Below are positions 2,463 through 51,001 of a stretch of 64,000 nucleotides of DNA, piece by piece. Positions within the stretch are counted from its first letter, which is position 1; every line of letters starts with the position of its first letter. The DNA is from Nocardia asteroides (GTDB lineage: Bacteria; Actinomycetota; Actinomycetes; Mycobacteriales; Mycobacteriaceae). The stretch spans positions 2,718,001-2,782,000 of the forward strand of contig NZ_LR134352.1 of the NCBI RefSeq assembly GCF_900637185.1, in the 5' to 3' direction. Below the pieces are notes generated by a model. It was given only the letters and a program-made list of their open reading frames with translations. It was not told the DNA's origin and did not search any database. The translations under genes and the position numbers were made by a program.

Positions 2463-2475
2463 CAACCCATTATCC

Positions 2476-2658
2476 CTACGGCGAGAGATCGAGGGCGGCC
2501 ATCTCCTGCTCGATCGCGTTGGCGGCGAAGTGGACTCCGCGGGAACGTAATTCGTGGACGCGGCAGTGGAGTGCCTCGATTCCGCCGGGCTGGGCGGCGA
2601 TGTCGGCCACGCTGAGCCGTCCCCCTGCTCGGTGCACACCGGACTGCATGTATGCCAC
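2476..2658 (-). CDS. Small hypothetical protein upstream of TetR
   Basis: A 60-residue protein of unknown function. The GTG start at 2658 is supported by a perfect GGAGG 7 nt upstream, one of the best ribosome-binding sites in the window. The sequence is soluble and probably helical, with no signal peptide, membrane segment or Cys pair. It lies just ahead of the TetR gene in the same direction, so it may be a partner or simply a leader gene. A longer in-frame start at 2748 has no such site. I recognise no family. Confidence 0.55.
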   Translation of the reverse strand: MAYMQSGVHRAGGRLSVADIAAQPGGIEALHCRVHELRSRGVHFAANAIEQEMAALDLSP

Positions 2659-2773
2659 CGTGATACCTCCTACCTCGCGTATCCGGTGCCGGCCGTCGCA
2701 CTCATGGCCGGACGCGATACGCAGGGCAAATGCTATCAGGGATCCCAACTGGTCACTTGCTCAATGTGACGTG

Positions 2774-3289
2774 TCACACCACTTCGGCGCCCTGGTGGAC
2801 CGAAAGACTGTGCACATACACGGCGGCGTTGAGCTTGATCCCGTCCCGCTGGGCCTCGGTGAGCTCGCGGCGCACCTTGCCGGGGACGCCGGCGACCAGG
2901 GAACCGGGCGGGATCTGGGCGCCCTCGGGGATCAGGGCGTTGGCCGCGATCAGGCTGCCCGCCCCGATCACCGCGCCGTTGAGCACGGTCGCGCCCATGC
3001 CGACCAGCACGTCGTCGCCGATGGTGCAGCCGTGCAGGATCGCGTTGTGGCCCACCGAGACTCCGCTGCCCACGGTGAGCGGGAAGCCGGGGTCGGCGTG
3101 CAGCACGCAGCCGTCCTGGATGTTGGTGCGCGCGCCGACGGTGATCTGCTCGATGTCGCCGCGCAGCACCGCCGAGTACCAGATGCCGACCTCGGCGGCC
3201 AGGCTCACCCGCCCGATGACAGTCGCGTTCGGCGCGATCCAGGCGGTGTCGTCGATCTCCGGCGCGAACCCGGCAACCTTGATGATCAT
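2774..3289 (-). CDS. Gamma-carbonic anhydrase-like hexapeptide-repeat protein
   Basis: A 171-residue left-handed beta-helix protein of the gamma-carbonic anhydrase / PaaY-YrdA group. Hexapeptide repeats of the [LIV]-G-x4 kind run from about residue 20 to 125, followed by a C-terminal helix. The three zinc-type histidines are at 64, 81 and 86 (VLHAD, VGHNAILHG), the spacing used across the trimer interface in this family. Carbonic anhydrase activity is not guaranteed, because many members are inactive or act on other substrates. The start is 8 bp from the end of the upstream GlxA-type regulator, suggesting cotranscription. Confidence 0.9.
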   Translation of the reverse strand: MIIKVAGFAPEIDDTAWIAPNATVIGRVSLAAEVGIWYSAVLRGDIEQITVGARTNIQDGCVLHADPGFPLTVGSGVSVGHNAILHGCTIGDDVLVGMGATVLNGAVIGAGSLIAANALIPEGAQIPPGSLVAGVPGKVRRELTEAQRDGIKLNAAVYVHSLSVHQGAEVV

Positions 3290-3296
3290 GCGGTGA

Positions 3297-4253
3297 TTAT
3301 TGCGCTGCCCCGCGGAACTGGGCGCGGTGGGCCGCCGGACTGGTGCCCAGCATGCGGTGGAAGTGGTGACGCAGGCTCACCGCGCTGCCGAAACCGGTGT
3401 CGCGCGCGATCCGGTCGACGGTCTCGTCGGTCGATTCCAGCAGCAGCCGGGCATGATCGGTGCGCTGCTGCAACAGCCACTGCTGCGGGCTGGTGCCGGT
3501 GCGTTCGCGGAACCGGCGGGTGAAGGTGCGCCGCGACATGAGCGCCTCGCGGGACCAGCCGTCCAGGCCGATGCCCGTGTCGAGGTGGGTGCGGGCCCAC
3601 ACCATGGCGCGTTCGATGGGATCGTCGGTGTCGTCGTCAGGGACCGCGACCGGGATGAACTGGGCCTGCGAGCCGTTGCGGTGCGGCGCGGTGACCAGCG
3701 CGCGGGCCAGGTCGGTGGCGGCGCGGGCGCCGAGGTCGCCGCGGACGATGTGCAGGCAGCAGTCCAGCGCGGCGGCCACGCCGGCGGAGGTGATGACATC
3801 GCCCAGGTCGGTCCACAGGGTGTCGGCGCGCACCCGGACCTTCGGGTAGGCCAGGGCCATCGCCTCCGCGGCCGCCCAGTGGGTGGTGAGTTCGCGGCCG
3901 TCGGCCAGGCCGGTCGCCGCGATGGCCCAGGCGCCCAGGCACAGCCCGACCAGGCGCGCGCCGGAGCCGTGGGCGGTGCGCACCGCGTCGCACAGCTGCG
4001 GGGACAGCTCCCTGCCGCGCAGCCAGCCGGGGAAGACCACCAGGTCGGCGCCGGCGATCGCGTCGAGGCCGTGATGCACGGTGATATCGAAACCCGCTGC
4101 GGTGGAGAGTGTTCCGGGCTCCTCGGCACACACCCGGACTTCGTAGGGTGAGTCGCCGGGGACGCCGGTGCCGGAGCGGCCGAAGACCAGCGTGGGCACC
4201 GACAGGTGGAAAGGACTGATGTCGTCGAACGCGACGACCGCCACCGAACGCAT
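3297..4253 (-). CDS. GlxA family regulator (DJ-1/PfpI plus AraC-type HTH)
   Basis: A 318-residue transcription factor. The N-terminal DJ-1/PfpI glutamine-amidotransferase-like domain (about 1-190) carries the nucleophile-elbow cysteine C105 in LVGLCLGAWA. The C-terminal AraC-type double helix-turn-helix (about 215-312) contains RRFRERTGTSPQQWL. In this family the first domain acts as a sensor and the second binds DNA. The next gene downstream, the gamma-carbonic anhydrase-like protein, is 8 bp away. The divergent MBL-fold gene starts 72 bp away across a shared promoter region, so either could be its target. Confidence 0.9.
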   Translation of the reverse strand: MRSVAVVAFDDISPFHLSVPTLVFGRSGTGVPGDSPYEVRVCAEEPGTLSTAAGFDITVHHGLDAIAGADLVVFPGWLRGRELSPQLCDAVRTAHGSGARLVGLCLGAWAIAATGLADGRELTTHWAAAEAMALAYPKVRVRADTLWTDLGDVITSAGVAAALDCCLHIVRGDLGARAATDLARALVTAPHRNGSQAQFIPVAVPDDDTDDPIERAMVWARTHLDTGIGLDGWSREALMSRRTFTRRFRERTGTSPQQWLLQQRTDHARLLLESTDETVDRIARDTGFGSAVSLRHHFHRMLGTSPAAHRAQFRGAAQ

Positions 4254-4324
4254 GGCCCGATCTTATCGATGCTCGGCCTGCAGGCCACTGTCGTGCCGGG
4301 TCGCGGTGGGCGACAGTGATCGTC

Positions 4325-5095
4325 ATGACCGAGACGATCACCCGCCCCGCCCTGCTCGACGTCCTGCACATCGGTGGTCCGACCCTGCGCTTCCGCTACG
4401 GCGGGCTCACCTGGCTCACCGACCCCACCTTCGACGAGCCCGGCGACTACCCCGGCCCGATCACCCTGCACAAGCTCAGCGGTCCCGCGGTGCCGGTGGA
4501 GTCGATCGGCGCGATCGACGTGGTGCTGCTCTCGCACGATCAGCACGCCGACAATCTCGACACCGCAGGCCGCGCGCTGCTGACCGAGGTCGGCACGGTG
4601 CTGTCCACACCGGACGCGGCCGGCCGCATCGACGGTGTGCGCGGGCTGGTGCCGTGGGAGCAGGCGCGCGTCGGCGCGGTGGTGGTGACCGCGGTGCCCG
4701 CGCTGCACGGGCCCGAGGGGTGCGAACCGCTCAGTGGCGTGGTCACCGGTTTCGTGCTGCGGGCCGAGGGCGAGCCGACGGTGTACGTGTCGGGCGACAA
4801 CGCCTCGGTGGACCTGGTCGAGCAGATCGTGGCGCGGGTCGGCCGGATCGATGTGGCGGTGCTGAACATCGGCGCGGCCAATGTCGGCCGGTTCGGCGAC
4901 AGCGACGTGACCCTGAACGCGCGCACGGCCGTGCGGGCGGCCCAGCTGCTCGGCGATGCCGTCGTCGTCGCGGTGCACGCGGAGGGCTGGGGGCATTTCA
5001 GCGAGTCGCTGGACTACCTCGAGCGGACCTTCGCCTACGCCGATCTCGCGGGCCGGCTCCGGATTCCGGTGCGGGGCGAAGTGTTCGCGGTCTGA
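4325..5095 (+). CDS. MBL-fold metallo-hydrolase, UlaG-like
   Basis: A 256-residue metallo-beta-lactamase-fold hydrolase. It begins with the family's typical strand pattern (LHIGGPTLRFRYGG, then LTDPTF) and carries the metal-binding motif SHDQHADNLD. Further ligands are likely the histidine in PALHGPEG, the aspartate in VYVSGDNAS and the histidine in VHAEGWGHF. This arrangement suits the UlaG-like / RomA-like branch, whose substrates vary widely. An in-frame GTG at 4316 is an alternative start; neither start has a clear ribosome-binding site. It is divergent from the GlxA regulator gene, which may control it. Confidence 0.85.
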   Translation: MTETITRPALLDVLHIGGPTLRFRYGGLTWLTDPTFDEPGDYPGPITLHKLSGPAVPVESIGAIDVVLLSHDQHADNLDTAGRALLTEVGTVLSTPDAAGRIDGVRGLVPWEQARVGAVVVTAVPALHGPEGCEPLSGVVTGFVLRAEGEPTVYVSGDNASVDLVEQIVARVGRIDVAVLNIGAANVGRFGDSDVTLNARTAVRAAQLLGDAVVVAVHAEGWGHFSESLDYLERTFAYADLAGRLRIPVRGEVFAV

Positions 5096-5151
5096 ACCGG
5101 GATTGTCGCGCCGCCGATCGCGGTGGCGCTGAACGAAATGGAGGAGAAGAG

Positions 5152-5754
5152 TTGCCCAAGAGACGGTTCCGTCGCGTGCGGGTGATCGCCGGGTTACTGC
5201 TGGCGCTGGCCGCGGTGATGTTCGTGGTGGCCGGGTGTTCGTCCGGCGACGCCGGGTCGGACCAGCCGGGATCGAGCACGGTGACGAAGTCGGTCACCGC
5301 CACGACCTCGGCGACGAGTACGGCGCCGACCTCGGCGAGCCCGAATGGGGGAACTCCGGCGCCCGGGCAGGCGGTGCCCGGCCAGCCCTCCGGCGGCGGG
5401 CAGACGGTCGCGCCGGGTGGCACCGAGCAGGTGCCGCCGCCCGGCTACAACTGCGTGCCCGGCCCCGACTGCGGGACCGACAGCTGCGGGCACAACGAAT
5501 GCGGGCTGCCGCCCGGCCACAACTGCATGCCCGGCCCGGAGTGCGGGACCGACAACTGCGGCCCCGGTCAGTGCGGCGAGAACCCCGCCCCGACCACCAC
5601 GGTCGCGCCGCCGGTGACGACGACCCCCGCCGCCACCACCCCCGCGGCGACCACGACGACTGCGCCGCCGGAGACCACCACCCCGGCGACGACCTCGGCG
5701 GCACCGGCGGCCGACCCGGCGGCGACCACCACCGCCACCGTGGCACCCGCCTAG
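5152..5754 (+). CDS. Lipoprotein with duplicated four-cysteine motif
   Basis: A 200-residue exported lipoprotein of unknown function. The TTG start at 5152 is set by GGAGG with a 7-nt spacer. A lipid signal peptide ends in VVAGC with the modified cysteine at 29. A Thr/Ser/Pro-rich linker follows. Then come two adjacent 24-residue repeats (95-118 and 119-142), each with four cysteines spaced C-x5-C-x4-C-x4-C, and then a Thr/Ala/Pro-rich tail typical of cell-wall-spanning segments. The eight cysteines could form disulfides outside the membrane or bind metal. The gene stands alone, 56 bp after the MBL-fold gene. Confidence 0.72.
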   Translation: MPKRRFRRVRVIAGLLLALAAVMFVVAGCSSGDAGSDQPGSSTVTKSVTATTSATSTAPTSASPNGGTPAPGQAVPGQPSGGGQTVAPGGTEQVPPPGYNCVPGPDCGTDSCGHNECGLPPGHNCMPGPECGTDNCGPGQCGENPAPTTTVAPPVTTTPAATTPAATTTTAPPETTTPATTSAAPAADPAATTTATVAPA

Positions 5755-5814
5755 CGGCCGACACACGCCCGGCAACCGCCCGAATCCCCTCGGCGACCGT
5801 CCTAAGCTGGCGCA

Positions 5815-6927
5815 ATGACGGGAACAGGCGGAACGGTCGGGGTACCGGCAGAGGTCAAACCGCAGGAGTTCCGGGTGGCGCTCACCCCGGCGGGCGCCAC
5901 CGAACTCATCGCGCACGGGCACCGGGTGCTCGTGCAGTCCGGCGCCGGGGCCGGCTCCGGCTTCCGGGACGAGGACTACCTCGCCGCCGGAGCCGGGATC
6001 GTGCCGGACGCCGACACCGTCTGGGCCAGGTCCGGGCTGATCCTCAAGGTGAAAGAGCCCATCGCGCAGGAGTATTCGCTGATGCGCCGCGATCAGGTGC
6101 TGTTCACCTACCTGCACCTGGCCGCGTCGAAGGAATGCACCGACGCGATCCTCACCTCCGGGATCACCGCCATCGCCTACGAGACGGTGCGTGCCGCGGA
6201 CGGCTCGCTGCCGCTGCTGGCGCCGATGAGCGAGGTCGCGGGCAAGCTCGGCACCCAGGTCGGCGCCTATCACCTGATGGCGCCGATGGGCGGCGCCGGC
6301 GTCTTGCTCGGTGGCGTGCCGGGGGTACGGCCGGCCGACGTGGTGGTGCTCGGCGGCGGCGTCGCGGGCACCAACGCGGCGAGCGTGGCGGTCGGGATGG
6401 GCGCCAGGGTGAGCGTGCTCGACACCAACCTGGCCCGCCTGCGCGCCCTCGACGCGCGATTCGGCGGCAGGCTCGGCACCCTCGCCTCGCACGCGCTGGA
6501 GATCGAGCGGGCGGTGCTCGGCGCCGATCTGGTGATCGGATCGGTGCTGGTGCCGGGCGCGAAGGCGCCCAAGCTGGTGTCCGACGAGCTCGTCGCGGGG
6601 ATGCGGCCCGGTTCGGTGCTCGTCGACATCGCCGTCGACCAGGGTGGCTGCTTCGCCTCCACCCGGCCGACCACGCACGCCGATCCCACCTTCCCCGTGG
6701 CGAACGCGCTGTTCTACTGCGTGGCGAACATGCCGGGCGCGGTCCCGCACACCTCCACCGTCGCCCTCACCAACGCCACCCTGCCGTTCGCGACCGCCAT
6801 CGCCGACAAGGGCTGGCGCGGTGCGTGCACCGCCGATCCCGGGCTCGCGGCCGGGCTCACCGCGGTCGACGGCAAACTGCTGTCGGCCGAAGTGGCCGCG
6901 GCGCACGGGTATTCGCTGGACGTGTGA
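5815..6927 (+). CDS. ald: Alanine dehydrogenase
   Basis: Converts L-alanine to pyruvate and ammonia with NAD, and runs in reverse to assimilate ammonia. The 370-residue length matches the family. Key residues align with a constant offset to the mycobacterial enzyme: R20 in FRVALTP, K80 in LKVKEP, H101 in YLHLAAS and the catalytic aspartate in VDIAVDQGG. The NAD-binding motif GGGVAGTNA lies near residue 180. The ATG start lies 60 bp after the lipoprotein gene. The stop abuts the stop of the convergent sigma-factor gene with no gap. Confidence 0.96.
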   Translation: MTGTGGTVGVPAEVKPQEFRVALTPAGATELIAHGHRVLVQSGAGAGSGFRDEDYLAAGAGIVPDADTVWARSGLILKVKEPIAQEYSLMRRDQVLFTYLHLAASKECTDAILTSGITAIAYETVRAADGSLPLLAPMSEVAGKLGTQVGAYHLMAPMGGAGVLLGGVPGVRPADVVVLGGGVAGTNAASVAVGMGARVSVLDTNLARLRALDARFGGRLGTLASHALEIERAVLGADLVIGSVLVPGAKAPKLVSDELVAGMRPGSVLVDIAVDQGGCFASTRPTTHADPTFPVANALFYCVANMPGAVPHTSTVALTNATLPFATAIADKGWRGACTADPGLAAGLTAVDGKLLSAEVAAAHGYSLDV

Positions 6928-7866
6928 CTACGCGCCGCCGCCCAGGTACCAATCCGGGGCGCCCTCGATCGGCAGGTCGTGCAGCTTGTCGGGGTTGCGC
7001 ACGATATTGATCGCGACGATGCGGCCCGCGTCGATCACGAACGAGAACACCCCGGTGTTCGCGCCGTCGAAGACCACCAGGCCGGGCACCCCGTTGACCA
7101 GGACCGCGCGGCCCCACGCGCCGGACGCCGACGGCGCGTGGTACCAGCCCAGCAGCGCCTTGGCGATGAGCTCGGCTCCGCGCAGCGGCTGGCGGACCGC
7201 GGGCACCTTGCCGCCGCCGTCGGCGGTGAGCACCACGTTCTCGTCGAGCACGCCGAGCAGCGAACTCAGATCACCCGAGCGCCACGCCAGCGCGAAGGCC
7301 GAGACCACCTTCTCCTGCTCGGCGGGCGAGGCGGGGAAACGGGGGGTGCCGGACTCGACATGCTTGCGGGCGCGCGAGGCCAGCTGGCGGACCGCGGCCG
7401 GCGTGCGGCCGACCACCGCGGCGACCTCGGGGCCGGTCATCCCGAACACGTCCTGGAGCACGAACGCGGTGCGCTCGGCGGGCGACAGCGATTCCAGCAC
7501 CACCAGCAGCGCCGTGGTGACCCGCTCGTCCTGGGAGATCCGGTCGGCCGGGTCGTCCCAGCTGGTGACCTCGGGTTCCGGCAGCCACTCGCCGACGTAC
7601 TGTTCGCGGCGGGCGCGCGCCGAACCCAGCTGGTCGAGGGCGAGCCTGCCGGTGACGGTGGACAGCCACGCGCGCAGGTTGTCGATCTCGCCCGCCTTGC
7701 CCGCCTCGTGCTGGCGTTGCAGGCGCAGCCACGCGTCCTGGACCACGTCGTCGGCGTCGGTGAGGCTGCCGAGCGTGCTGTAGGCGAGCCGGCGCAGGTA
7801 GGGGCGGTGTTCCTCGAAGCGTCGGGCCAGTTCGGCCTGGTCGAGGGGCTGTGCTGCGTCGGTCAT
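6928..7866 (-). CDS. ECF41-type RNA polymerase sigma factor
   Basis: A 312-residue extracytoplasmic-function sigma factor of the ECF41 (SigJ-like) group. Region 2 is at about residues 15-85 and region 4 at about 120-175. A SnoaL-like C-terminal domain carries DGGGK at 216-220 and NPDKL near the end. The linker motif WLPEP is at 94-98. In ECF41 factors the C-terminal domain replaces an anti-sigma factor and tunes activity. The usual partner, a small oxidoreductase or carboxymuconolactone decarboxylase, is absent: neighbours are ald and, divergently, cobD. Confidence 0.94.
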   Translation of the reverse strand: MTDAAQPLDQAELARRFEEHRPYLRRLAYSTLGSLTDADDVVQDAWLRLQRQHEAGKAGEIDNLRAWLSTVTGRLALDQLGSARARREQYVGEWLPEPEVTSWDDPADRISQDERVTTALLVVLESLSPAERTAFVLQDVFGMTGPEVAAVVGRTPAAVRQLASRARKHVESGTPRFPASPAEQEKVVSAFALAWRSGDLSSLLGVLDENVVLTADGGGKVPAVRQPLRGAELIAKALLGWYHAPSASGAWGRAVLVNGVPGLVVFDGANTGVFSFVIDAGRIVAINIVRNPDKLHDLPIEGAPDWYLGGGA

Positions 7867-7982
7867 CGTTGGTCGCCGTTCAGTCGTCCGGCCCGGTGCG
7901 GGGCGATTCTAGGAGGGTGTCACCGAGTAGACGAACCAGCACGGGCGGGTGTGACATTCCCGGGTCGGCTACCCTCGGCCGG

Positions 7983-8906
7983 GTGCAGCAGGGGACATCG
8001 ACCGCGCTCGGACTGGCGCTCGGATTCGCGCTCGACCGGATCTTCGCCGATCCGCGGCGCTACCACCCCGTCGCCGGATTCGGTTCCGCCGCTGCGGCAT
8101 TGGAAGAGGTGACCTACGCCGACGAGCGGCAGGCCGGGGTCGTGCACGAGGTGATCGCGGTGGGCGCGGTGCTCGGGATCGGGGCGATCGCGGCCCGCGC
8201 GGGTATCCTCGCGACGGCACTGGCCACCTGGACCGCGCTCGGCGGGCGCAGCCTCGCCCGCGCCGGGCACGCCATGGCCGAGCGGCTCGACGCCGGCGAC
8301 CTCGACGGCGCCCGCGAATTGCTGCCCTCGCTGTGCGGGCGCGACCCCTCGGTGCTCGACGCCGACGGACTGGCCAGGGCCGCCCTGGAATCGGTGGCCG
8401 AGAACACCTCCGACGCGACCGTGGCGCCGCTGCTCTGGGGTGCCGTCGCCGGGGTGCCGGGGCTGCTCGGGTATCGCGCCGTGAACACCCTCGACGCGAT
8501 GATCGGCTACCGCAACGAGCGCTACCTGCGCTTCGGCTGGGCCGCCGCCCGCACCGACGACCTGGCCAACGTGGTCCCCGCCCGCGTCACCGGCGTCCTC
8601 ACCGCCGCCCTCGCGCCCCTGGTCGGCGGCACCCCCGGCGCCGCGTGGCGGGCCTGGCGCCGCGACGCCGCCAAGCACCCGAGCCCGAACGCGGGCGTGG
8701 TCGAGGCGTCGATGGCAGGCGCCCTCGGCGTCCGCCTCGGCGGCCGCACCCAGTACCGGCACGGCGCCGAACTACGGCCCACCCTGGGCGACGGGCCCGC
8801 CCCGACCACCGCGGATCTGCGCCGGGCGGTGCGGATGTCGGAGGCGGTGCAGGTGGGCGCGCTCGTGGTGTCGGTGGTAGTTGCCAAGGGGCTCCGGCGG
8901 CGCTGA
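7983..8906 (+). CDS. cobD: Adenosylcobinamide-phosphate synthase CobD/CbiB
   Basis: An integral membrane enzyme of cobalamin synthesis that joins adenosylcobyric acid to aminopropanol or its phosphate. The 307-residue product from the GTG at 7983 begins with the family opening LGFALDRIFADP, followed by RYHPVAGFG. Other hallmarks are ESVAENTSDATVAPL, GYRAVNTLDAMIGYRNERY and HPSPNAGVVEASMAGALGV. An upstream frame extension to 7851 is unlikely because it has no family similarity. The ribosome-binding site is weak. The gene opens the block conserved with mycobacteria (Rv2236c equivalent), with cobC 1.6 kb away. Confidence 0.94.
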   Translation: MQQGTSTALGLALGFALDRIFADPRRYHPVAGFGSAAAALEEVTYADERQAGVVHEVIAVGAVLGIGAIAARAGILATALATWTALGGRSLARAGHAMAERLDAGDLDGARELLPSLCGRDPSVLDADGLARAALESVAENTSDATVAPLLWGAVAGVPGLLGYRAVNTLDAMIGYRNERYLRFGWAAARTDDLANVVPARVTGVLTAALAPLVGGTPGAAWRAWRRDAAKHPSPNAGVVEASMAGALGVRLGGRTQYRHGAELRPTLGDGPAPTTADLRRAVRMSEAVQVGALVVSVVVAKGLRRR

Positions 8907-9093
8907 GCGGATCGGTCGTCGGTCGAACCGAGAACTCCTCGCCGTGTGCGCCGACCGGCGCAGCGTCGTCGTGGTTGCGGCCGATGAACGGCTGCGGCCC
9001 GGTCGCAGGAGCGTTGTCGGGCGCTCGGGCTGGCGGGCGTGCTCGGCGCCCTGGTCGCCGTCGTCCTGCTGAATGCGCAGCGCGTTTGCTCGG

Positions 9094-9951
9094 TCAGCGG
9101 TTGCGGCCGTAGCGGTCGGCCAGGCGGGCTTCGGTGGTGGCCGGGGTCGCGGTATCCGTGGGCTGCGCGGCCGGGGTGGACTCGGCGCGGTCGCGGCGGC
9201 GGGCGCGGAGTTCGGCGACGACGAAGTACCCGAGGCCGAGCGGAGCCATGATGCCGAAGGCCAGCCACTGGAGGCCGTAGGAGAGGTAGGGGCCCGCGTC
9301 GAGCTGGGGGAGCGGGGTGGGAGTGAAGGCGCCGGGCTGGTCCGCGGCGAGCTGGAGATAACCGCCCTTGTCGGTGCCGGTGGGCAGGGCGGTCAGCGGG
9401 GTGCCGAGGACGGTGGCTTCCTGGGTGGTGTCGACGGTGTACACCTGGCGGTAGCCGTCCTGCGTGCTCGGCGGCTTGTCGGCGACGACGCCCTCCGAGG
9501 CGCGCACCCGCGCTTCGAGGCGCTGCGGGCCGGCCGGCGGGGCGGCGATCTGCGGCGGACGGGTGCCGTCCACCGCGGCGACCAGGCCGCGGTCGACCAG
9601 GAGGGTGCGGCCGTCGTCCAGCCGGAAGGCGGCCAGCACCGCGTAGCCGGGGGCGCCGTCGAGATGACGCAGCCGCACCAGCACCGTCGAATCCGCGACG
9701 TAGGCGCCGTTCGCGGTGACCCGCCGCCACTCGGTGTGAGCGGCCGGATCACCGTCGAGCACGCTCGTCACGTCCACCGGGTCGGCCCGCACCGAGTCGG
9801 CGATCAGCTGGTTGCGGTGCTCGGTGCTGGTGTTCTTGCCCAGCTGCCACGGCGCGAGCACCGTGAAGCACAGGTAGGCGAACGCCGCGACGATCACCGC
9901 GAGGATCAGCCAGCTCGGGCGCAGCAGGAAGGTGAGTTTGCGGATCATCAT
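9094..9951 (-). CDS. SURF1 family cytochrome oxidase assembly protein
   Basis: A 285-residue membrane protein of the SURF1 family, which helps assemble haem-copper cytochrome c oxidase. It has the expected two transmembrane helices: one near the N-terminus (about 11-31, after KLTFLLRPSW) and one near residue 230 (YGLQWLAFGIMAPLGLG). A large extracytoplasmic domain lies between them, with PWQLGK and LLVDRGLV. The start overlaps the stop of the upstream phosphatase gene in an ATGA junction, so the two are translationally coupled. An ATG one codon later is equally possible. Confidence 0.9.
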   Translation of the reverse strand: MMIRKLTFLLRPSWLILAVIVAAFAYLCFTVLAPWQLGKNTSTEHRNQLIADSVRADPVDVTSVLDGDPAAHTEWRRVTANGAYVADSTVLVRLRHLDGAPGYAVLAAFRLDDGRTLLVDRGLVAAVDGTRPPQIAAPPAGPQRLEARVRASEGVVADKPPSTQDGYRQVYTVDTTQEATVLGTPLTALPTGTDKGGYLQLAADQPGAFTPTPLPQLDAGPYLSYGLQWLAFGIMAPLGLGYFVVAELRARRRDRAESTPAAQPTDTATPATTEARLADRYGRNR

Positions 9952-10442
9952 CGCTGCGCGTCGGCCACGGTGTGGGCGTCCAGTGCGGCGCGCACCCAGT
10001 CGAGCAGGCCGGGGATGGCGGCCTCGATCTGGTCGCGGACCAGGTCGAAGTCGGTCTGGTCGCCGTAGTACGGGTCGGGCACGTCGCTGCCGTCGGCGGC
10101 GGGGTCGAAGCTGCGCAGCAGGCGGCGCTGCTCGGTGGGGACGCCGCGGTGCGCCAGCTCCCGGTCGTGCCCGGTGTCGAGGGCGATGATCAGGTCGGCG
10201 TCGCGGTGATCGGTGCCGAAGGTGGCCGCGATGTGGTCGGTGGGGTAGCCGGCCCGGCGCAGCGTGGCCTCGGTACGCGGATCGGCCGGATCGCCCACAT
10301 GCCACGATCCGGTGCCCGCGCTGGTCACCCGTACCCGGTTCGCGAGACCGGCACGGTACAGATGCGCCTCGAACATCTTCGCCGCCATCGGCGACCGGCA
10401 GATGTTTCCTGTGCAGATGAATGACACGTGCAGCTGACCCAC
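9948..10442 (-). CDS. ptpA: Low-molecular-weight protein tyrosine phosphatase
   Basis: A 164-residue cytosolic LMW-PTP. The phosphate-binding loop CTGNICRS begins at C10, and the general-acid aspartate lies in DVPDPYYGDQ near the C-terminal third. The GTG at 10442 places the P-loop at the usual distance from the N-terminus; longer in-frame starts run into the cobC promoter. The position next to SURF1 and cobC matches M. tuberculosis ptpA (Rv2234), a secreted phosphatase in that pathogen. Secretion here cannot be read from sequence, since there is no signal peptide. The gene is divergent from cobC. Confidence 0.93.
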   Translation of the reverse strand: MGQLHVSFICTGNICRSPMAAKMFEAHLYRAGLANRVRVTSAGTGSWHVGDPADPRTEATLRRAGYPTDHIAATFGTDHRDADLIIALDTGHDRELAHRGVPTEQRRLLRSFDPAADGSDVPDPYYGDQTDFDLVRDQIEAAIPGLLDWVRAALDAHTVADAQR

Positions 10443-10494
10443 GCAGCCATTGTCGCCGGTGCCGCCGAATCGCCGCCACGTAGGGTGTTCAGTT

Positions 10495-11784
10495 GTGTTC
10501 CAGGACTCCGTCGACCCCGCGATGCTGCGCCACCACGGCGACGTGGACGCGCGCCCTGGCATGCTCGATTTCGCGGTCAACGTCCGCGGCACCGCCCCGC
10601 CCGCCTGGTTGCGCGACCGCCTCGCCGCCCGCCTCGACGACCTCGGCCGCTACCCGTCCGCCGCGGACGAGGCCGCCGCCCGCGCCGCCGTCGCCGCCCG
10701 GCACGGCCGCCGTCCCGACGAAGTCCTGCTGCTCGCTGGCGCCGCCGAGGGCTTCGCCCTCCTACCCCGCCTGACCCCGCGCCTGGCCGCGGTGATCCAC
10801 CCGTCCTTCACCGAACCCGAGCTGGCCCTGCGCGAGGCGGGCATCCCGGTGACCCGCGTGGTGCTGGAACCGCCGTACACGCTCGACCCGGCTCTGGTCC
10901 CGGAGGACGCGGACCTCGTCGTTCTCGGCAACCCGACCAACCCCACCTCGGTGCTGCACCCCGCCGCGATGATCCACGCGCTGCGCAGGCCGGGCCGGAT
11001 CGTCGTGGTCGACGAGGCTTTTGCCGACGCCGTCGTCGGGGCCGGGTCGTCGGCCGATTCCGACAGCGACCAACCTGCGCTCGGTGCGGCCGTCGCCCAC
11101 GGGCCCGGCATCGCCTCATTGGCCGAATCGCGGCCACTCGCCCCAGCGGTACCCGACTCGTTCGTCGGGTCGGGGTCGCAGGCCGGTCAGGACGCGGTCG
11201 CCGGGCTGGGATTGAAGGCAGGTCAGGATGCGCTCGCAGGGTCGGCATCGTCCGGTGCTCCGGACACCCTCACTGTGCGCGCGGTGCAGGGCGATCCCGA
11301 ATCGCTGGCCGCACTTTCGGCGCCTGATGTGCTCGTGCTGCGCAGTCTCACCAAGACCTGGGCGCTGGCCGGGTTGCGGTGCGGGTATGCGCTGGGTGCG
11401 CCGGAGGTGCTGGCCCGGCTGACCCACGGGCGCCCGCACTGGCCGTTGGGCACTCTCCAGCTCGAGGCGATCAGCGCCACCGCCGAACCGTCGGCCGTCG
11501 CCGCGGCCCGGGAGCACGCGGGCGACATCGCCGTCGAGCGGTCGGCCATGATCGAGCGGCTCACCGCGCTCGGCATCGAGGTGCACACCCCGGCCGCGGG
11601 CCCGTTCCTGCTGCTGCGCGTCACCGACGGTGAGCTGGTGCGCAAACGCCTGGCCGATCGCGGGATCGCCGTGCGCCGAGCCGATACCTTCCCGGGCCTC
11701 GGACCGGATCACCTGCGGGTCGCCGTCCGCGCGCCCGGCGAGGTCGACCGATTGATCGACGGGCTGCGAGCGGCGCTGTGGTGA
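10495..11784 (+). CDS. cobC: CobC-like PLP aminotransferase/decarboxylase with internal insertion
   Basis: A fold-type I PLP enzyme resembling threonine-phosphate decarboxylase and histidinol-phosphate aminotransferase, placed in cobalamin synthesis by the nearby cobD and the conserved order (Rv2231c equivalent). The substrate-binding motif GNPTNP is at 145-150, the PLP aspartate is D173 (VVDEAF) and the Schiff-base lysine is K287 (SLTKTWALAGLR). Between D173 and K287 lies an unusual stretch of about 82 residues (181-262) rich in Ser/Ala/Gly. It includes two copies of an AGQDA[VL]AG motif, and most homologues lack it. The GTG at 10495 is the likely start. Confidence 0.88.
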   Translation: MFQDSVDPAMLRHHGDVDARPGMLDFAVNVRGTAPPAWLRDRLAARLDDLGRYPSAADEAAARAAVAARHGRRPDEVLLLAGAAEGFALLPRLTPRLAAVIHPSFTEPELALREAGIPVTRVVLEPPYTLDPALVPEDADLVVLGNPTNPTSVLHPAAMIHALRRPGRIVVVDEAFADAVVGAGSSADSDSDQPALGAAVAHGPGIASLAESRPLAPAVPDSFVGSGSQAGQDAVAGLGLKAGQDALAGSASSGAPDTLTVRAVQGDPESLAALSAPDVLVLRSLTKTWALAGLRCGYALGAPEVLARLTHGRPHWPLGTLQLEAISATAEPSAVAAAREHAGDIAVERSAMIERLTALGIEVHTPAAGPFLLLRVTDGELVRKRLADRGIAVRRADTFPGLGPDHLRVAVRAPGEVDRLIDGLRAALW

Positions 11785-45324: not shown

Positions 45325-45780
45325 TCAGCGCGCGTTGACCAGCGCAGTCCCGGTCGCCCGGTCGTGCATGCCACGTCCGTCGGCGTCGGTGAACAGCGCC
45401 GGGACCACGAACACCAGCAGCACCTGCCGCACCAGCGCGCGGACGAACCCGACCGCCACCGGGGCGTCGATCCGCATCACCCGCAGCTTCATGAAGTACT
45501 GGCCCGGGGTGAACCCGAACAGCGTCACCGCCGCGATGCCGACCACGAACCACACCAGCAGCGGCACCGACGACGAGGCGAAGCTGCGCGTGATCACCGC
45601 CGCGATCCCGACCGCGATGAACCAGTCGATGAACAACGCCACCACCCGGCGCCAGGTCGCCGCCAGCGAACCGGCGCCCTCGCGCGGCAGCCCGTACAGC
45701 TCGCCGGGGTAGCCGGATGTTTCCGGGTCGCCCGGTTCCGCCGGATTGCCGGAGAGCCATGTGCCGGTGATACGCGCCAT
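45325..45780 (-). CDS. RDD family membrane protein
   Basis: A 151-residue RDD-domain protein (Rv2219A equivalent). Three hydrophobic segments (about 46-65, 70-89 and 114-131) and the family signature RRVVALFIDWFI with GFTPGQYFMKLRVMRID are visible. The initial Arg-Asp-Asp is here Arg...Asp. The soluble N-terminus is Pro/Gly-rich. Function unknown. It sits between DUF4191 and glnA as in mycobacteria, and its start is 251 bp upstream of glnA in divergent orientation. Confidence 0.9.
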   Translation of the reverse strand: MARITGTWLSGNPAEPGDPETSGYPGELYGLPREGAGSLAATWRRVVALFIDWFIAVGIAAVITRSFASSSVPLLVWFVVGIAAVTLFGFTPGQYFMKLRVMRIDAPVAVGFVRALVRQVLLVFVVPALFTDADGRGMHDRATGTALVNAR

Positions 45781-45918
45781 GGCTTCCAGGATAGAGGCGA
45801 GCTACCGCCCGCTCACGACCGCATTCGTGGAGGTCACGTCACCGCGCCGCCCGGCGGATGGCAGGATTACGATGCAGCTCGCGACCGGATGGCAGACATC
45901 ACCCCGAATCCGGCACGC

Positions 45919-45956
45919 GTAACACTGGCGAAACACAGCCTTGACTGTAGGGAAAC
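45919..45956 (+). promoter_or_regulatory. Tandem GlnR-binding site upstream of glnA1
   Basis: GTAAC-N6-GAAAC-N6-TTGAC-N6-GAAAC, four half-boxes with exact 6-bp spacing, as in the Streptomyces GlnR consensus. It lies 75 bp upstream of the glnA start. GlnR is the global nitrogen regulator that induces glnA under nitrogen limitation. The spacing is strong evidence; the regulator gene is outside this window. Confidence 0.9.
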
Positions 45957-46031
45957 ACCGCGTCCATAGCGTCGTGTCGCGACGAACCCATGCATCGTGA
46001 CTGGCTGGGAACCGATCCGTAAGGAGAACAA

Positions 46032-47468
<1,437 letters not shown>

Positions 47469-47501
47469 GTCGTTTCGACGGCTTGACCTGCGGCTGAGCA
47501 C

Positions 47502-48024
47502 CTAACCTCGGTCCTCTGTCCGCAGTTCGTCCGCAGTTGCAGTACCCGAGTCCATCCGTTCCGCGACCACTTCACCGATTGCGGTTCGGGTGGACTCGTC
47601 TGCGTCCGGCCACAGATGCCCGTAGGTGACGTCAGCGACCTCGAGCGCGGATACCTCAGCGACTCGGAGATCCGCGAACGCGCCGAGGAGAACGGCCACC
47701 CGGAGGTGTTCCGGAAACGCGTCATGGATCGCCCAAACCTGTTGCGGCGTAGCTACATACGGCTTCTGCTTGCCCATCGGGGGAGCGGTTCAGTTGAGCA
47801 TCCCGTGGTGACACGTGAGTGCCCTGCACAAGCGTGGACATCTGCGCGTTCAGCCAGGATTGCGCATCGGTCTTGCGGTCGAACCCCTTGGCGTGTTCGT
47901 CGACGTACCGAGCACGCCACTTCTTGCCAACTCCGTAGTTCGCCGATGGCACCTGCTCGCGCTTCTTCGTCCCGTCGTCGCTCACCACGGTGACGGTCTT
48001 GAACCAGCGCGGTTCCCCCTTCAT
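47502..48024 (-). pseudogene. Phage-type tyrosine integrase, broken
   Basis: Pieces of one integrase in two frames. From 48024 the first frame gives the arm-binding N-terminus (GKKWRARYVDEHAKGFDRKT, then LVQGTHVSPRDAQ). A second frame starting near 47777 gives the catalytic-domain opening (PYVATPQQVWAIHDAFPEHL, LGAFADLRVAEVSALEVADV). It jumps straight to the usual tail (TYGHLWPDADESTR). The core-binding domain, the HxxR segment and probably the tyrosine are missing. The gene is dead by frameshift and internal deletions. It places the element's mobility in the past. Confidence 0.8.
47518..47535 (+). repeat. Paired GTCCGCA motif, left end
   Basis: GTCCGCA-GTTC-GTCCGCA, an 11-bp-period direct repeat about 50 bp inside the left attachment copy. 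The same arrangement occurs at 49221-49238 near the right end. It resembles integrase arm-binding sites. It also lies within the end of the integrase pseudogene. Confidence 0.45.
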
Positions 48025-48159
48025 GCGCGGGCCAACCCAGACCAGGGCCGATGCCGGTCACCAGAACGTGCGATAGGCGGCAATTGCAGGGTATTGAGTT
48101 CGGCCGTCTCAGCAGGCAAACCGGTCGCTTGGCCCCGATCGCTGATCGATACTCTTTTC

Positions 48160-48660
48160 ATGGGAAAGAAGACTGGCCATCGCTGCGACCGCGCCGATCC
48201 GGCCGACCGATCCCTGCTATCGGCGGCGGCCAACGCTGCGCTCCTCCTCGAGGAGACGATGTCGGCCACCAATCACGCCGTCAGCATCGACCTCGACCCA
48301 GTCATTGCGTTGGACGGCGAGCTGTTCATTCGCCGTACGCCACCGCGGGATCGCATACTCCGCGTCGTCGCGGACCCGGTTCTCAACACCGAGGTGATAA
48401 AACCGGTCTCGCGATGGCCAGAGTACTTGCGCAGCGCCGTGCGTCGGATGCACCCACCGCGAGGTTTATGCGCCCATGAGGGCGCGCTGGATGCGCTGGT
48501 AGACGATTACGCCCGCGACGTCGAGAACTTGCTCGGCACCATCCGATTCGCAGCGCAGGTGAAGATCCAGCCGGAAGGGTACTACGCCAATATCTGGGAT
48601 GATTTCGTGTTGATCTCCCGCACGCACGTGGCTCGCCTGTCCTTGAGTGCCGCCGATTGA
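48160..48660 (+). CDS. Hypothetical cargo protein of the element
   Basis: A 166-residue soluble protein of unknown function. The opening GKKTGHRCDRADPADR is basic; the rest is mixed alpha/beta. No signal, membrane helix or known motif. The ATG at 48160 lacks a ribosome-binding site, whereas an ATG at 48259 has AGGAG just before it and would give 133 residues starting SATNHAVSIDLDP. It is the first of two genes inside the glnA-associated element; the second starts 55 bp after it. It resembles no phage structural or regulatory protein I know. Confidence 0.55.
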   Translation: MGKKTGHRCDRADPADRSLLSAAANAALLLEETMSATNHAVSIDLDPVIALDGELFIRRTPPRDRILRVVADPVLNTEVIKPVSRWPEYLRSAVRRMHPPRGLCAHEGALDALVDDYARDVENLLGTIRFAAQVKIQPEGYYANIWDDFVLISRTHVARLSLSAAD

Positions 48661-48715
48661 CGACTGTCGACGGGGTGGCGGCACGGCTTGCAACACAAAA
48701 TCTAGGACTCGACAG

Positions 48716-49144
48716 ATGAACACCGTGCTCGAATCCGCGCCCTACATGACCGAGTGCATCGAATGTGGATCGCTGATCGAAGTAACGATCGTCGAAGTGC
48801 TCACAGGCGGTACACATCTGTGGGATCTCGAAGGTGATTGCCCCGAGTGCGGGTGCTGCTGGAACGAATGCGGATACCCGACGCCGCTCACCGGTATGCG
48901 CATCGCAATCTTGGACGCGAACGGCCCGACCGCCCTTGAGCTTGCCGCGGGTAGCGCCACGCCAGTGGTGGTGATGCAGGCGCTTCGCAAGGTCAGAGCG
49001 CTGTCGCTCGTCGAAGCCCGCGCGATGGCCGAGGAACTCTGTAGCAGGGGGCTCGAAGGAACCAGGGTCGAGATGGAGGTTCTGGCAATTGAACTGCGCG
49101 CAGCGGGTGCGATCGTCAGTATCCGGTCCTCCGATGCGGTTTGA
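48716..49144 (+). CDS. Zinc-ribbon protein with ribosomal L7/L12-like C-terminal domain
   Basis: A 142-residue protein in the element. Residues 11-53 hold a Cys-rich unit: C14-x2-C17, then C42-x2-C45 with C47, C48 and C52, probably binding zinc. Residues about 85-136 (VVVMQALRKVRALSLVEARA onward, ending LRAAGAIVSI) match the pattern of the L7/L12 ribosomal stalk C-terminal domain: V-x2-LR-x(4)-L-x-LVEA, a helix, then ELxxAGAxVxI. That domain binds translation GTPases. No role is known for such a fusion. AGGA lies 8 nt before the ATG. Confidence 0.68.
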   Translation: MNTVLESAPYMTECIECGSLIEVTIVEVLTGGTHLWDLEGDCPECGCCWNECGYPTPLTGMRIAILDANGPTALELAAGSATPVVVMQALRKVRALSLVEARAMAEELCSRGLEGTRVEMEVLAIELRAAGAIVSIRSSDAV

Positions 49145-49220
49145 GCACTCGCTCGTCGGCATGAGCGGACGTTCGACGATGGGCGATTGGCTCCGCGCGG
49201 TAGGAAGCAAAAGGTCGACC

Positions 49221-49238
49221 GTCCGCAATCCGTCCGCA
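49221..49238 (+). repeat. Paired GTCCGCA motif, right end
   Basis: GTCCGCA-ATCC-GTCCGCA, 118 bp inside the right attachment copy, with the same orientation and spacing as the left pair at 47518. Two precise pairs at both ends of a 1.9-kb element suggest recognition sites for its recombinase. Confidence 0.45.
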
Positions 49239-49356
49239 GCGAACGCGGAGACACCCACATGCGACCAACGACGGCATCAATCAAACGAGCAGGTCAGGCA
49301 ACCGTGCCGTTGGTGTCCGTCACCTGCAAACGTCCTGCAGTGAGTCCGAGCACTTT

Positions 49357-49370
49357 CTACGACGTGTAAG
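49357..49370 (+). repeat. Right attachment repeat (attR-like)
   Basis: Exact copy of CTACGACGTGTAAG from the glnA end. The preceding 16 bases are also similar to the glnA 3' coding sequence, differing at several positions. The sequence to its right begins the ordinary chromosome. Confidence 0.7.
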
Positions 49371-49485
49371 CCTGACCTGCGCCGCCAGGGCTGAAAGGTC
49401 CGCCGGTACGTGGTAAGTGCAGGAAAATCCCCTTCGACCCATCGGAGGTGATTTTCTGTTGTCCGGTGGTGAACGGCGCGCGGAC

Positions 49486-49698
49486 TCAGTGCACGCAATC
49501 GTTGTGCGCGGGCGGGCTGTAGGTGGTCGCGCCGCAGGCGAGGCAGGAGTGCATGCGGTGGTGGCCACCGATGCGCCGACACGGCATCACGGTGACGATC
49601 GACCGCCCGGCGCCCAGGCGGTGCCCGTTCGGGCAGAACCGGGGCGCCGGTTCTGTCCACACGCCGGTGCGCACATAAGGGCGCACAGATTCGCACAT
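49486..49698 (-). CDS. Small zinc-ribbon protein
   Basis: A 70-residue protein with zinc-binding residues in order: C22-x3-H26 (FCPNGHRL), C40, H46/H47/H50 and C52-x2-C55 (SCLACGATTY). The CPNGHRLG...TCxxCG pattern recurs in short Nocardia and Rhodococcus proteins of unknown function. The ATG at 49698 is chosen because the longer frame upstream (to 49791) looks non-coding. It lies between the element and a conserved hypothetical gene on the same strand. Confidence 0.6.
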   Translation of the reverse strand: MCESVRPYVRTGVWTEPAPRFCPNGHRLGAGRSIVTVMPCRRIGGHHRMHSCLACGATTYSPPAHNDCVH

Positions 49699-49831
49699 GT
49701 GTTCGATTATGGACCGTCGGTGCCGAGCGCGCTCATCGGGGGCAACCTTCTGGCACCGCGGAGGTCCGGTCGCACCCGCGCGGAACTTCACCCACGACTT
49801 GCTCGTGCTTCGGTCGTCGAGCCGGGTGAAC

Positions 49832-50290
49832 CTACCGCGTGGTGAGGCGGGCCTGGATGGCGGCGACGAAGGCGGTGGGGTCGGGGTGGGGGCCCGGGCC
49901 CAGGTTGAAGTGGCTGTGGTCGGACCAGGAGCCGAGCATGGTGGCGTCGGGCTGGAGTGCGGCGCGTTCGAGGGTGAAGTAGCGGACCTGGTCGGCGTCC
50001 TCGGGCAGGACGACGGCGACGAAGTGGGCTTCGGTGGGGGCGGCGGGTTCCGGGAGCTGCACGAGGAGCAGGCGGAAGCCGTCGGCCTCGATGCGGCGGC
50101 CCGTGACGCTGTCGCTGGGTAGCCGGTCTTCGGGCGCCAGGTTCTCGCCGACGTTGTCCCACAGGAACTTCAGCACGTCGGTGTAGCCGGCGGGCGGCTC
50201 CTCGGTGACCATCTGCGGGCCGATACGCTGCGCCAGTTCCGGCAGTACGCGATGCGCGAACTGATAGTGGTGATTTCTGGGTTCCGCCAC
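49832..50290 (-). CDS. Conserved hypothetical protein
   Basis: A 152-residue soluble protein. The GTG at 50290 is supported by GGGAGG 8 nt upstream. The N-terminus (HHYQFAHRVLPELAQRIGPQ) is helical; the second half is beta-rich, with RLLLVQLPEPAAPTEAHFVA and a C-terminal GSWSDHSHFNLGPGP. Actinobacterial homologues of this type exist without assigned function, to my knowledge. No signal peptide or membrane helix. Same strand as the TetR gene 84 bp upstream. Confidence 0.76.
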   Translation of the reverse strand: MAEPRNHHYQFAHRVLPELAQRIGPQMVTEEPPAGYTDVLKFLWDNVGENLAPEDRLPSDSVTGRRIEADGFRLLLVQLPEPAAPTEAHFVAVVLPEDADQVRYFTLERAALQPDATMLGSWSDHSHFNLGPGPHPDPTAFVAAIQARLTTR

Positions 50291-50374
50291 GGTGATTCCC
50301 TCCCGGACCGAACGGGAATTCCCCGCCCGCGCCGCCACCCTACTCGCCCGGTCCGACACCGTGGTGCGGGTCGA

Positions 50375-51001
50375 TCAGGCCCGGATGAACAGGCGCAGCG
50401 CTTCGTCGACGACGGCGTCGCGGGTGCGCCCGTCCGGATCGGCGTCCGGGCGCAGCCAGATCGAGGCGTGGTTGAGGATGCCGTGCAGGCAGTGCAGCGC
50501 CACCGACGGATCGGGACAGTCGAACTCGCCCGCCGCGATCCCGCGATCGACGACCTCGCGGAAGATCCGGTCGTGGCGCCGCCGCATGGTCTTGATCGAC
50601 TCGGTGTGCTCGGTCGGCCACGGCGCCGGGAACGAGAACAGCGTGCCCACTTCGGGATACAGCACCGTCAGCACCCGCAACTGGGCCGCGACGAGCGCGC
50701 GCAGCTGGTCGGTGGCCGACCGGTCGGCCGCCATGTCCAAGGCTTCGCCGAGGTGGGTCAGCACGTCGCCGGTCAGTTTCTCCAGCGCCGCCGAGACCAG
50801 CGCGTCTTTGCTCGGGAAGTAGTGGTAGAGCGTGGCTTTCGCGATGTCGGAGCGTTCGGCGACATCTTCGAACCGCATCCCCTGGTAGCCGCTGCTCACC
50901 AGGATCTGCAGCGCGGCGTCGATCATCTCCGCCTTGCGGCGATCGCGGCGTCTGGCCGCGCGCCCGGCGGGCGCGACGCTCTCGTCCGCCATCGAAGTCA
51001 T
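50375..51001 (-). CDS. TetR family transcriptional regulator
   Basis: A 208-residue TetR repressor. The helix-turn-helix is at about residues 25-70, with the core DIAKATLYHYFPSKDALVSAAL. The C-terminal helical domain contains SIKTMRRRHDRIFREVV. ATG 51001 or 50992 are both possible starts. The divergent thioesterase-like gene starts 105 bp away, and two inverted repeats lie in between, so this protein most likely represses itself and that gene. The ligand may be an acyl-CoA or fatty acid, judged only from the target's type. Confidence 0.9.
   Translation of the reverse strand: MTSMADESVAPAGRAARRRDRRKAEMIDAALQILVSSGYQGMRFEDVAERSDIAKATLYHYFPSKDALVSAALEKLTGDVLTHLGEALDMAADRSATDQLRALVAAQLRVLTVLYPEVGTLFSFPAPWPTEHTESIKTMRRRHDRIFREVVDRGIAAGEFDCPDPSVALHCLHGILNHASIWLRPDADPDGRTRDAVVDEALRLFIRA

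Follow-up and report, generated by a model that had tools for sequence, protein, structure and literature searches.

A decayed integrative element in the 3' end of glnA1 of Nocardia asteroides and its integrase-encoded hairpin as a putative replacement terminator

The glutamine synthetase gene glnA1 of Nocardia asteroides is followed by 1.9 kb of DNA which, by comparison with related genomes, is supported as a decayed integrative element sitting in the 3' end of the gene. A hairpin encoded opposite the last codons of its broken integrase is put forward, with a probability of about four in five, as a domesticated and still putative replacement terminator of glnA1. The DNA analysed comprises 64,000 nucleotides and is called the window in the following. 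An element at this place had already been proposed in an initial annotation of the window and this part stands; the hairpin within the integrase gene had been missed there.

According to the mechanism proposed here a tyrosine integrase of the glnA1 clade, which relies on paired arm-type sites and on a core of about 22 bp, would recombine inside the last codons of the gene. Comparison of loci shows that the final codons and the stop come from the element, the glnA1 protein being restored, and that the older terminator is displaced to the element's own far end. The integrase gene runs towards glnA1 and its last codons fold as a strong hairpin on the glnA1 strand, most likely the replacement transcription terminator of the gene. 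Many Nocardia glnA1 genes now end in an integrase fossil, and the likely reason is that during decay by deletion selection would spare this hairpin and let the remainder be lost.

The element in the window and its attachment sites

The 14-bp sequence CTACGACGTGTAAG, which the initial annotation had described as an exact repeat of the glnA1 end, is indeed found in exact copies at both places (Table 1), the left copy being the end of the glutamine synthetase reading frame. If up to two mismatches are allowed the window contains three matches where 0.18 would be expected; the third one is located at 32030 and carries two mismatches. In other genomes the identical core on both sides of intact elements is longer, about 22 bp, so the 14 bp of the window look like the rest of a longer one. 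The initial annotation is to be amended accordingly: the repeat probably derives by decay from a core of about 22 bp.

Table 1. Coordinates of glnA1 and of the features found at and behind its 3' end in the window
Feature	Position	Strand	Remarks
glnA1, encoding glutamine synthetase (478 aa), with the attachment site at its 3' end	46032..47468	+	ORF; Pfam PF00120 E 2.1e-136, PF03951 E 4.4e-27
Left attachment core TTCGAGCTCTACTACGACGTGTAAG	47445..47469	+	right end repeats the final 14 nt (47456-47469)
Integrase remnant, box I arginine region fused to tyrosine region and C-terminus	47502..47777	-	
Left arm-type integrase site	47518..47535	+	two GTCCGCA boxes spaced 11 bp
Hairpin with 3' tail opposite the integrase C-terminal codons; putative replacement terminator of glnA1	47545..47609	+	77.9 bits, E 5.4e-20
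Integrase remnant, N-terminal part	47722..48024	-	frame differs from C-terminal part
Inner ORF, 166 aa	48160..48660	+	family of 14 proteins; organism-named members are Nocardia
Inner ORF, 142 aa	48716..49144	+	weak L7/L12 C-terminal-like match under cut-off
Right arm-type integrase site	49221..49238	+	
Right attachment core, 14 bp exact	49357..49370	+	
Displaced older terminator, hairpin with T-rich tail	49423..49456	+	resembles one close behind glnA1 in L033/L035

The arm-type box pairs of the window are positioned at +49 from the left and at -137 from the right core, and in intact elements the right pair is found 134-136 nt before the right core. L102 and L153 share the GTCCGCA box sequence of the window and have their boxes at +49 and -136, and L038, L069, and L079 have theirs at +37 and -134 to -136 with the sequence GTACGCA. 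By the strict pattern the right pair alone is seen in L109, and no paired boxes in L147, L126, and L077. As the box type is the same at both ends wherever both were found, there is strong evidence that 49357 marks the true right end of the element. Otherwise the paired arm motif is rare, with 12 occurrences in 2.3 Mb past the first 300 nt, right arms counted. The number of repeats against expectation and the paired arm sites led to rejection of a chance origin of the repeat. A tRNA as attachment target was likewise rejected, the window being free of tRNA genes.

Information on the crossover came from genome G131, where a second glnA1-type integrase occupies a secondary site located within a different reading frame (L312, contig C5, approximately 2560-3811); it aligns over residues 1-389 and its hairpin scores 82.6 bits. 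The junction carries ...TTCGAGCTGTACTACGACGTGTAAG, the last glnA1 codons and the stop having been brought along. As this element brings the glnA1 end to a secondary site, it suggests strand exchange near TTCGAGCT, with last codons and stop coming from the element, and it corroborates the restored gene end assumed in the initial annotation. For the window a crossover at or near 47445-47453 would follow, which would make the last glnA1 codons element-derived.

A broken integrase just inside the left copy had also been noted, and the two remnant reading frames proved to be pieces of one integrase which align piecewise to glnA1-type integrases. Neither has a Pfam match at E<=1; to an intact integrase they align in three blocks (46-63%). 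The closest intact DNA is that of L147 (genome G024), with blocks at 47480-47631 (93%), 47632-47791 (85%), and 47790-48015 (82%), between which 360 bp and about 276 bp of L147 are missing from the window.

The longer reading frame containing the 166-amino-acid inner ORF has no Pfam match. The family of the 142-amino-acid ORF comprises 28 proteins, occurs in 22 of 150 Nocardia genomes, and has organism-named members from Nocardia throughout. Neither inner ORF has a match in the other loci read at glnA1, and relatives of one of them (L326-L344) have no neighbouring integrase, bar a distant match in L329. A known structured RNA at the site was rejected, no Rfam match at E<=1 being obtained in 45500-50500. 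Right beside the element a 101-amino-acid ORF with cysteine pairs and no Pfam match is located at 49486-49791 on the minus strand.

Occupied, empty, and reused sites behind glnA1

A match to the glnA1 3' end was obtained in 149 of 150 Nocardia genomes, the one of the window included, and the downstream DNA was first read in 141 other genomes (142 loci). The larger elements anticipated at the same place, with their integrases intact, turned up in the form of an uninterrupted glnA1-adjacent integrase in 10 of the 141 genomes (L038, L069, L075, L079, L102, L126, L136, L147/L148, L153, L157); in L109 the integrase is in two pieces. Second core copies yield element lengths of 10.0 kb (L038), 10.2 kb (L069), 8.6 kb (L079), 11.1 kb (L126), 5.8 kb (L109), 6.5 kb (L102), 6.1 kb (L153), and 7.9 kb (L147), and the scar in L077 has 1.7 kb between core copies. 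No exact second core was present in the DNA searched for L075, L136, and L157, and likewise in the 1.8 kb of L148. Six further genomes (L316-L321) comprise five with ordinary terminators and one, L320, with a scar.

Pfam searches of these relatives detected a tyrosine integrase and RepSA (PF20199, E 2.3e-100) in L153, FtsK-type proteins in L147 and L038, NUDIX and HD proteins in L038, and a GntR/UTRA regulator in L079; L038 and L147 also carry Rep-sized ORFs. The tyrosine recombinase catalytic domain PF00589 is found in L153 and L069, and the conserved active-site motifs GLR, RHY, RHA, and TYGHLW are invariant in nine aligned intact integrases. In L069 (G136, 300-10540) the element encodes an integrase, a terminase large subunit, and phage capsid genes and is a candidate phage satellite, as it combines an integrase with packaging and capsid functions and is too small for a full phage. 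G386 (L309-L310), a member of the same family, has a siphovirus-like prophage of 38.7 kb at glnA1 with terminase, protease, tape measure, and minor tail protein genes; its integrase and hairpin are of the glnA1 type, and an older integrase end lies behind it.

Additional hairpins or ends of integrase genes past the right core or farther downstream occur in L038, L044, L064, L077, L114, L123, L126, and L147, and by the covariance model described below also in G015, G081, and G106. Since insertions stack in this way the glnA1 3' end is reused, and the suspicion of a reusable hotspot was justified. In L147, L148, L172-L174, L186, L199, and L202 one and the same glnA1-type element end is repeated several times, both in tandem and on separate contigs, and the copies probably form an array at the site. 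A repeat at 2200 in L155 (G061) was considered as a second decayed element and left out; what is seen there is an apparent direct duplication of the glnA1 end and its own terminator, about 2.2 kb apart and with no integrase.

Empty sites joining the two flanks had been predicted, and a clean one exists for L153. Its counterpart L318 (G076) agrees to 95% over the first 80 bp, terminator included, and to 94% over the 556 bp of a second stretch. The prediction came true only in part for the window. With its flanks joined 47469-49371, a single alignment runs across the junction with L033 (394 columns, 89%) and L035 (395 columns, 89%), 300 of these columns being glnA1, and over the 86 nt past the junction the match is short and weak, 58 of 92 and 59 of 93 columns, respectively, being alike with gaps counted. 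It includes a terminator similar to the displaced one of the window, and gene order differs thereafter. In L031, L032, and L044 the downstream genes of the window from about 49832 are present, with scars of their own in between. After the stop L033 and L035 have paired GTTCGCA/GTACGCA boxes, and as this sequence resembles an older element end the site of the window was probably used before. Two observations named beforehand as speaking against the element, namely the same 1.9 kb in all related genomes with an empty site in none, and the lack of the repeat in close relatives having the intervening genes, were not made. Ordinary terminators displaced past the right core were found in L069, L102, L109, L153, and the window, and show that insertion shifts an older terminator to the distal side of the element.

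A hairpin opposite the integrase C-terminus

The hairpin of the window has an outer stem of 11 bp (47548-47558 with 47587-47597) and folds with -34.5 kcal/mol (z -5.03) on the plus strand and with -29.6 kcal/mol (z -2.32) on the minus strand; the corresponding hairpin in L153 yields -43.0 (z -6.74) on the glnA1 strand and -37.5 (z -4.88) on the other. On the glnA1 strand the hairpins of the integrase ends have up to 22 pairs. A covariance model was built from 20 glnA1-type integrases, most of which adjoin glnA1; in L197 and L249 only the glnA1 core is present, the contig breaking off or diverging at this point. As these 20 were chosen with the hairpin known, their high scores are by construction. 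Scores of 71-87 bits were obtained in 11 glnA1-type loci and none of 31 others exceeded 36 bits.

In the phylogenetic tree the glnA1 integrases and a ccsB group form one clade, with the ccsB group (L189-L195), L188, and L196 nested inside. Some placements have a support below 95, L197, L200, L242, and L246 are long branches, and the tree does not contain L250-L253. The nested branches reach model scores of 35.5 (L193), 31.7 (L188), 28.5 (L196), 26.8 (L195), 21.7 (L191), 18.8 (L190), and 16.7 bits (L192), no model score being reported for L189, and other integrases have at most 19.5 bits. Given their nested position the hairpin has weakened where the target changed. A ccsB-like gene for cytochrome c biogenesis has the integrases L189-L193 and L195 at its 3' end; this target was assigned by reading of a CcsB-like ORF, for which the names ccsB and ResB are used. 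Behind the integrase a tRNA gene is found in 18 of 25 scanned integrase loci away from glnA1.

A strong model-scored hairpin in every glnA1-adjacent integrase had to be rejected, since L250 (38.1 bits) and L252 (30.9 bits) score low, within the range of the retargeted L193. The corresponding values are 61.5 bits for L251 and 38.9 bits for L253. L250-L253 come from viral contigs and are more distant integrases with hairpins of differing sequence at the same place, the stem of L253 sharing little; L250 has another strong hairpin (-44.4 kcal/mol) between integrase and glnA1. Because of the low scores of L250 and L252 a fold test independent of sequence was added, in which 78 nt from a conserved proline codon were compared on both strands with 100 dinucleotide shuffles. 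On the target strand all 22 glnA1-type integrases had z values from -2.9 to -10.7 (model set of 20, -3.8 to -10.7; L250, -3.2; L252, -2.9), and all 22 integrases at other places ranged from -2.1 to +1.7 (six ccsB-type, -2.1 to +1.6; the nested L188 and L196, +0.9 each; 14 others, -0.8 to +1.7). L251 (z -7.5) and L253 (z -4.7), which have no assigned target, fold well too and were counted apart, and L194, L198, L215, L217, L219, L220, L228, L231, L238, L242, and L246 had no region for the test. In the model set the energy is lower on the glnA1 strand in 17 of 20 cases; ranked by z, 5 of the 20 favour the integrase strand, which makes for a modest strand bias.

The hairpin leaves its mark on the coding sequence. 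Among 109 invariant degenerate amino acid columns of 19 intact integrases seven use a single codon, and five of these (D374, E375, S376, T377, and D390) are in the stem or at its edge; just beyond the stem the third base of R378 takes all four letters. In this alignment the stem codons are thus synonymously frozen, which is a constraint at the coding level. Of the cells in the stem alignment 90.7% are paired, and two-sided changes occur in 8 of 22 pairs against a mean of 4.2 in shuffles which ignore relatedness, none of 500 being as high. In L197 both arms are changed and the hairpin is kept. One stem pair is U-G on the glnA1 strand in 16 of 19 distinct sequences, corresponding to C-A on the other strand.

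Matches to the model at E<=0.01 are present in 72 of 150 Nocardia genomes, with at least 84 non-redundant matches. Among the 84 matches listed, 64 (63 genomes) are located at most 200 bp after glnA1 on its strand, 11 farther downstream, and 9 elsewhere by script, one of which, in G098, directly follows glnA1 on reading. A family sample of 401 genomes, which includes some of the same Nocardia, has 98 with a match at E<=1e-4 from 19 of 31 genera; among 30 loci returned (9 Nocardia, window included) 29 are glnA1-adjacent, the exception (L282) being the distal hairpin behind the G386 prophage. A loose hairpin rule with up to three mismatches had given 91 loci with ordinary terminators mixed in and was replaced by a strict rule and the covariance model. 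The strict scan of 142 loci (window included, L148 omitted as duplicate) found the hairpin in 61, of which 10 are intact and 51 are not.

In these 51 loci, which include the window and L109 and were picked for having the hairpin, it persists without an intact integrase, often with little else left. Integrase DNA homology stops 0-30 nt past the hairpin in 34 and 0-60 nt past it in 41 of the 51. Among the loci that have no intact integrase and still show protein homology, residues 363-391 of the integrase remain in 23 loci, 341-362 in 15, 271-340 in 5, 181-270 in 2, 91-180 in none, and 1-90 in one, a gradient to be expected beside an essential gene even if no selection acts. Two-sided changes that keep the pairing are found in integrase-less loci at stem pair 7 (three loci) and at stem pair 10 (four loci). 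The T content of the tail is higher in decayed copies (3.96 versus 3.10, p 0.005), a modest effect with 10 intact loci only, and a TTT occurs in the 12-nt tail of 9 of 51 decayed copies versus none of 10 intact ones. Fully Watson-Crick stems amount to 17 of 51 decayed versus 1 of 10 intact copies, which is not significant (p 0.26). By eye nine loci keep arm-site remnants without the integrase hairpin, and each of them has another hairpin nearby. We infer that transcription stops at the hairpin and that its retention would be due to selection for this function.

The same element and the same decay could also be combined with a hairpin that serves the integrase, as a DNA site or in expression control, and lingers by its nearness to an essential gene. 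We regard this as rather unlikely, though it draws on several observations: the hairpin has the left arm site on one side and the catalytic region on the other, it is without a T-tract, it folds on both strands, with the lower z on the integrase strand in 5 of 20, and deletion geometry alone would retain it, DNA beside an essential gene being lost last. What weighs against a role of this kind is that clade relatives sited elsewhere have a weakened hairpin or none, that pairing is maintained by two-sided changes after the integrase has been lost, and that integrase homology ends just past the hairpin.

Terminators of glnA1 and relation to known systems

Strong hairpins follow glnA1 in nearly all of 143 loci, the best 50 nt having a median of -35.4 kcal/mol (n=140) and the weakest, in L054, -10.0 kcal/mol. 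Their near-universal occurrence fits a need for one. Of the features of an intrinsic terminator the integrase hairpin has a strong stem-loop and a poor U-tract, and the window hairpin was not flagged by a consensus terminator scan limited to loops of 3-8. Terminators similar in design (GAGCCCTCCCG.., GAAGCCCCATCCG..) are present in many element-free loci, and the one of L046 looks intermediate by eye. Such likeness would be expected if an ancestral element had captured the host's own glnA1 terminator and versions had been exchanged since, the hairpin still terminating glnA1; however, GC-rich terminators look alike in general, and we consider a capture very unlikely. That the 1.9 kb are chromosomal DNA in which the 14-bp repeat arose by chance and the integrase fragment is unrelated is barely credible, since, in spite of the inner ORFs being unmatched at other glnA1 loci and one having relatives elsewhere in Nocardia genomes, and of the short empty-site match past the junction (58 of 92 columns), arm sites of an otherwise rare paired motif are in register with intact elements at both ends, the repeat is exact, and the integrase fragments keep the place and order of intact integrases.

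If the replacement terminator is real it answers how an element can sit harmlessly between an essential gene and its terminator, namely by bringing its own terminator inside the integrase gene. Protein and RNA information would then clearly overlap on opposite strands, a case backed by the freezing of synonymous codons, and the remnant of a mobile element would have been domesticated to regulate a housekeeping gene. Since intact, decayed, and empty sites coexist across the family the steps can be followed. A further-reaching idea, offered tentatively and with the odds somewhat against it, is that mobile elements are a main source of glnA1 terminators in the family: the integrase gene would be read two ways, successive elements would swap terminators, and some native-looking terminators such as that of L046 would be old integrase ends with both arms altered and still paired.

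Among known systems the actinomycete integrative and conjugative elements (AICEs) of the pSAM2 type are similar in that relatives at the site encode a tyrosine integrase, RepSA, FtsK-type proteins, and GntR/UTRA, NUDIX, and HD proteins. From the AICE set L153 has integrase and RepSA, and L147 and L038 each have FtsK by Pfam, direct repeats being present. In the main text of PMC3218068 the known AICEs with tyrosine integrases are mostly found in tRNA 3' ends. The glnA1 elements differ in targeting a protein gene, and the remnant in the window keeps no Rep or Tra: it has the site-specific integrase as remnants only, and its remaining ORFs have no Pfam match to a replication initiator (RepSA, RepAM, or Prim-Pol), which may have been lost by deletion, nor to an FtsK/SpoIIIE-type transfer protein. 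Consisting of an integrase and two other ORFs only, it is not filed as an AICE. The word glnA does not occur in the main texts of PMC3218068, PMC10654092, and PMC12884075. A literature search, with most subscription journals and all supplements outside its scope, retrieved no paper joining glnA, attB, integrase, and Nocardia, which does not establish absence from print.

Actinobacterial phage satellites and prophages are resembled by L069 with its terminase and capsid genes and by the G386 prophage; the difference is that the glnA1-type integrase and hairpin are common to these and to the AICE-like elements. The integrase of L153 had no match at 60% identity in a phage collection (26-29% in the best 20 matches listed) or among plasmids (24-33% in the best 15 matches listed). 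The glnA1 3' end is a hotspot to be checked when AICEs, satellites, and prophages are annotated in Nocardia, Rhodococcus, and mycobacteria.

Other islands and prophages target the 3' ends of conserved protein genes such as icd, prfC, and guaA and restore them. The glnA1 elements share with them the 3' end target, the restored gene end, and the direct-repeat core; unlike in these systems the coding sequence of the glnA1-type integrase contains a hairpin on the target strand which outlives the element.
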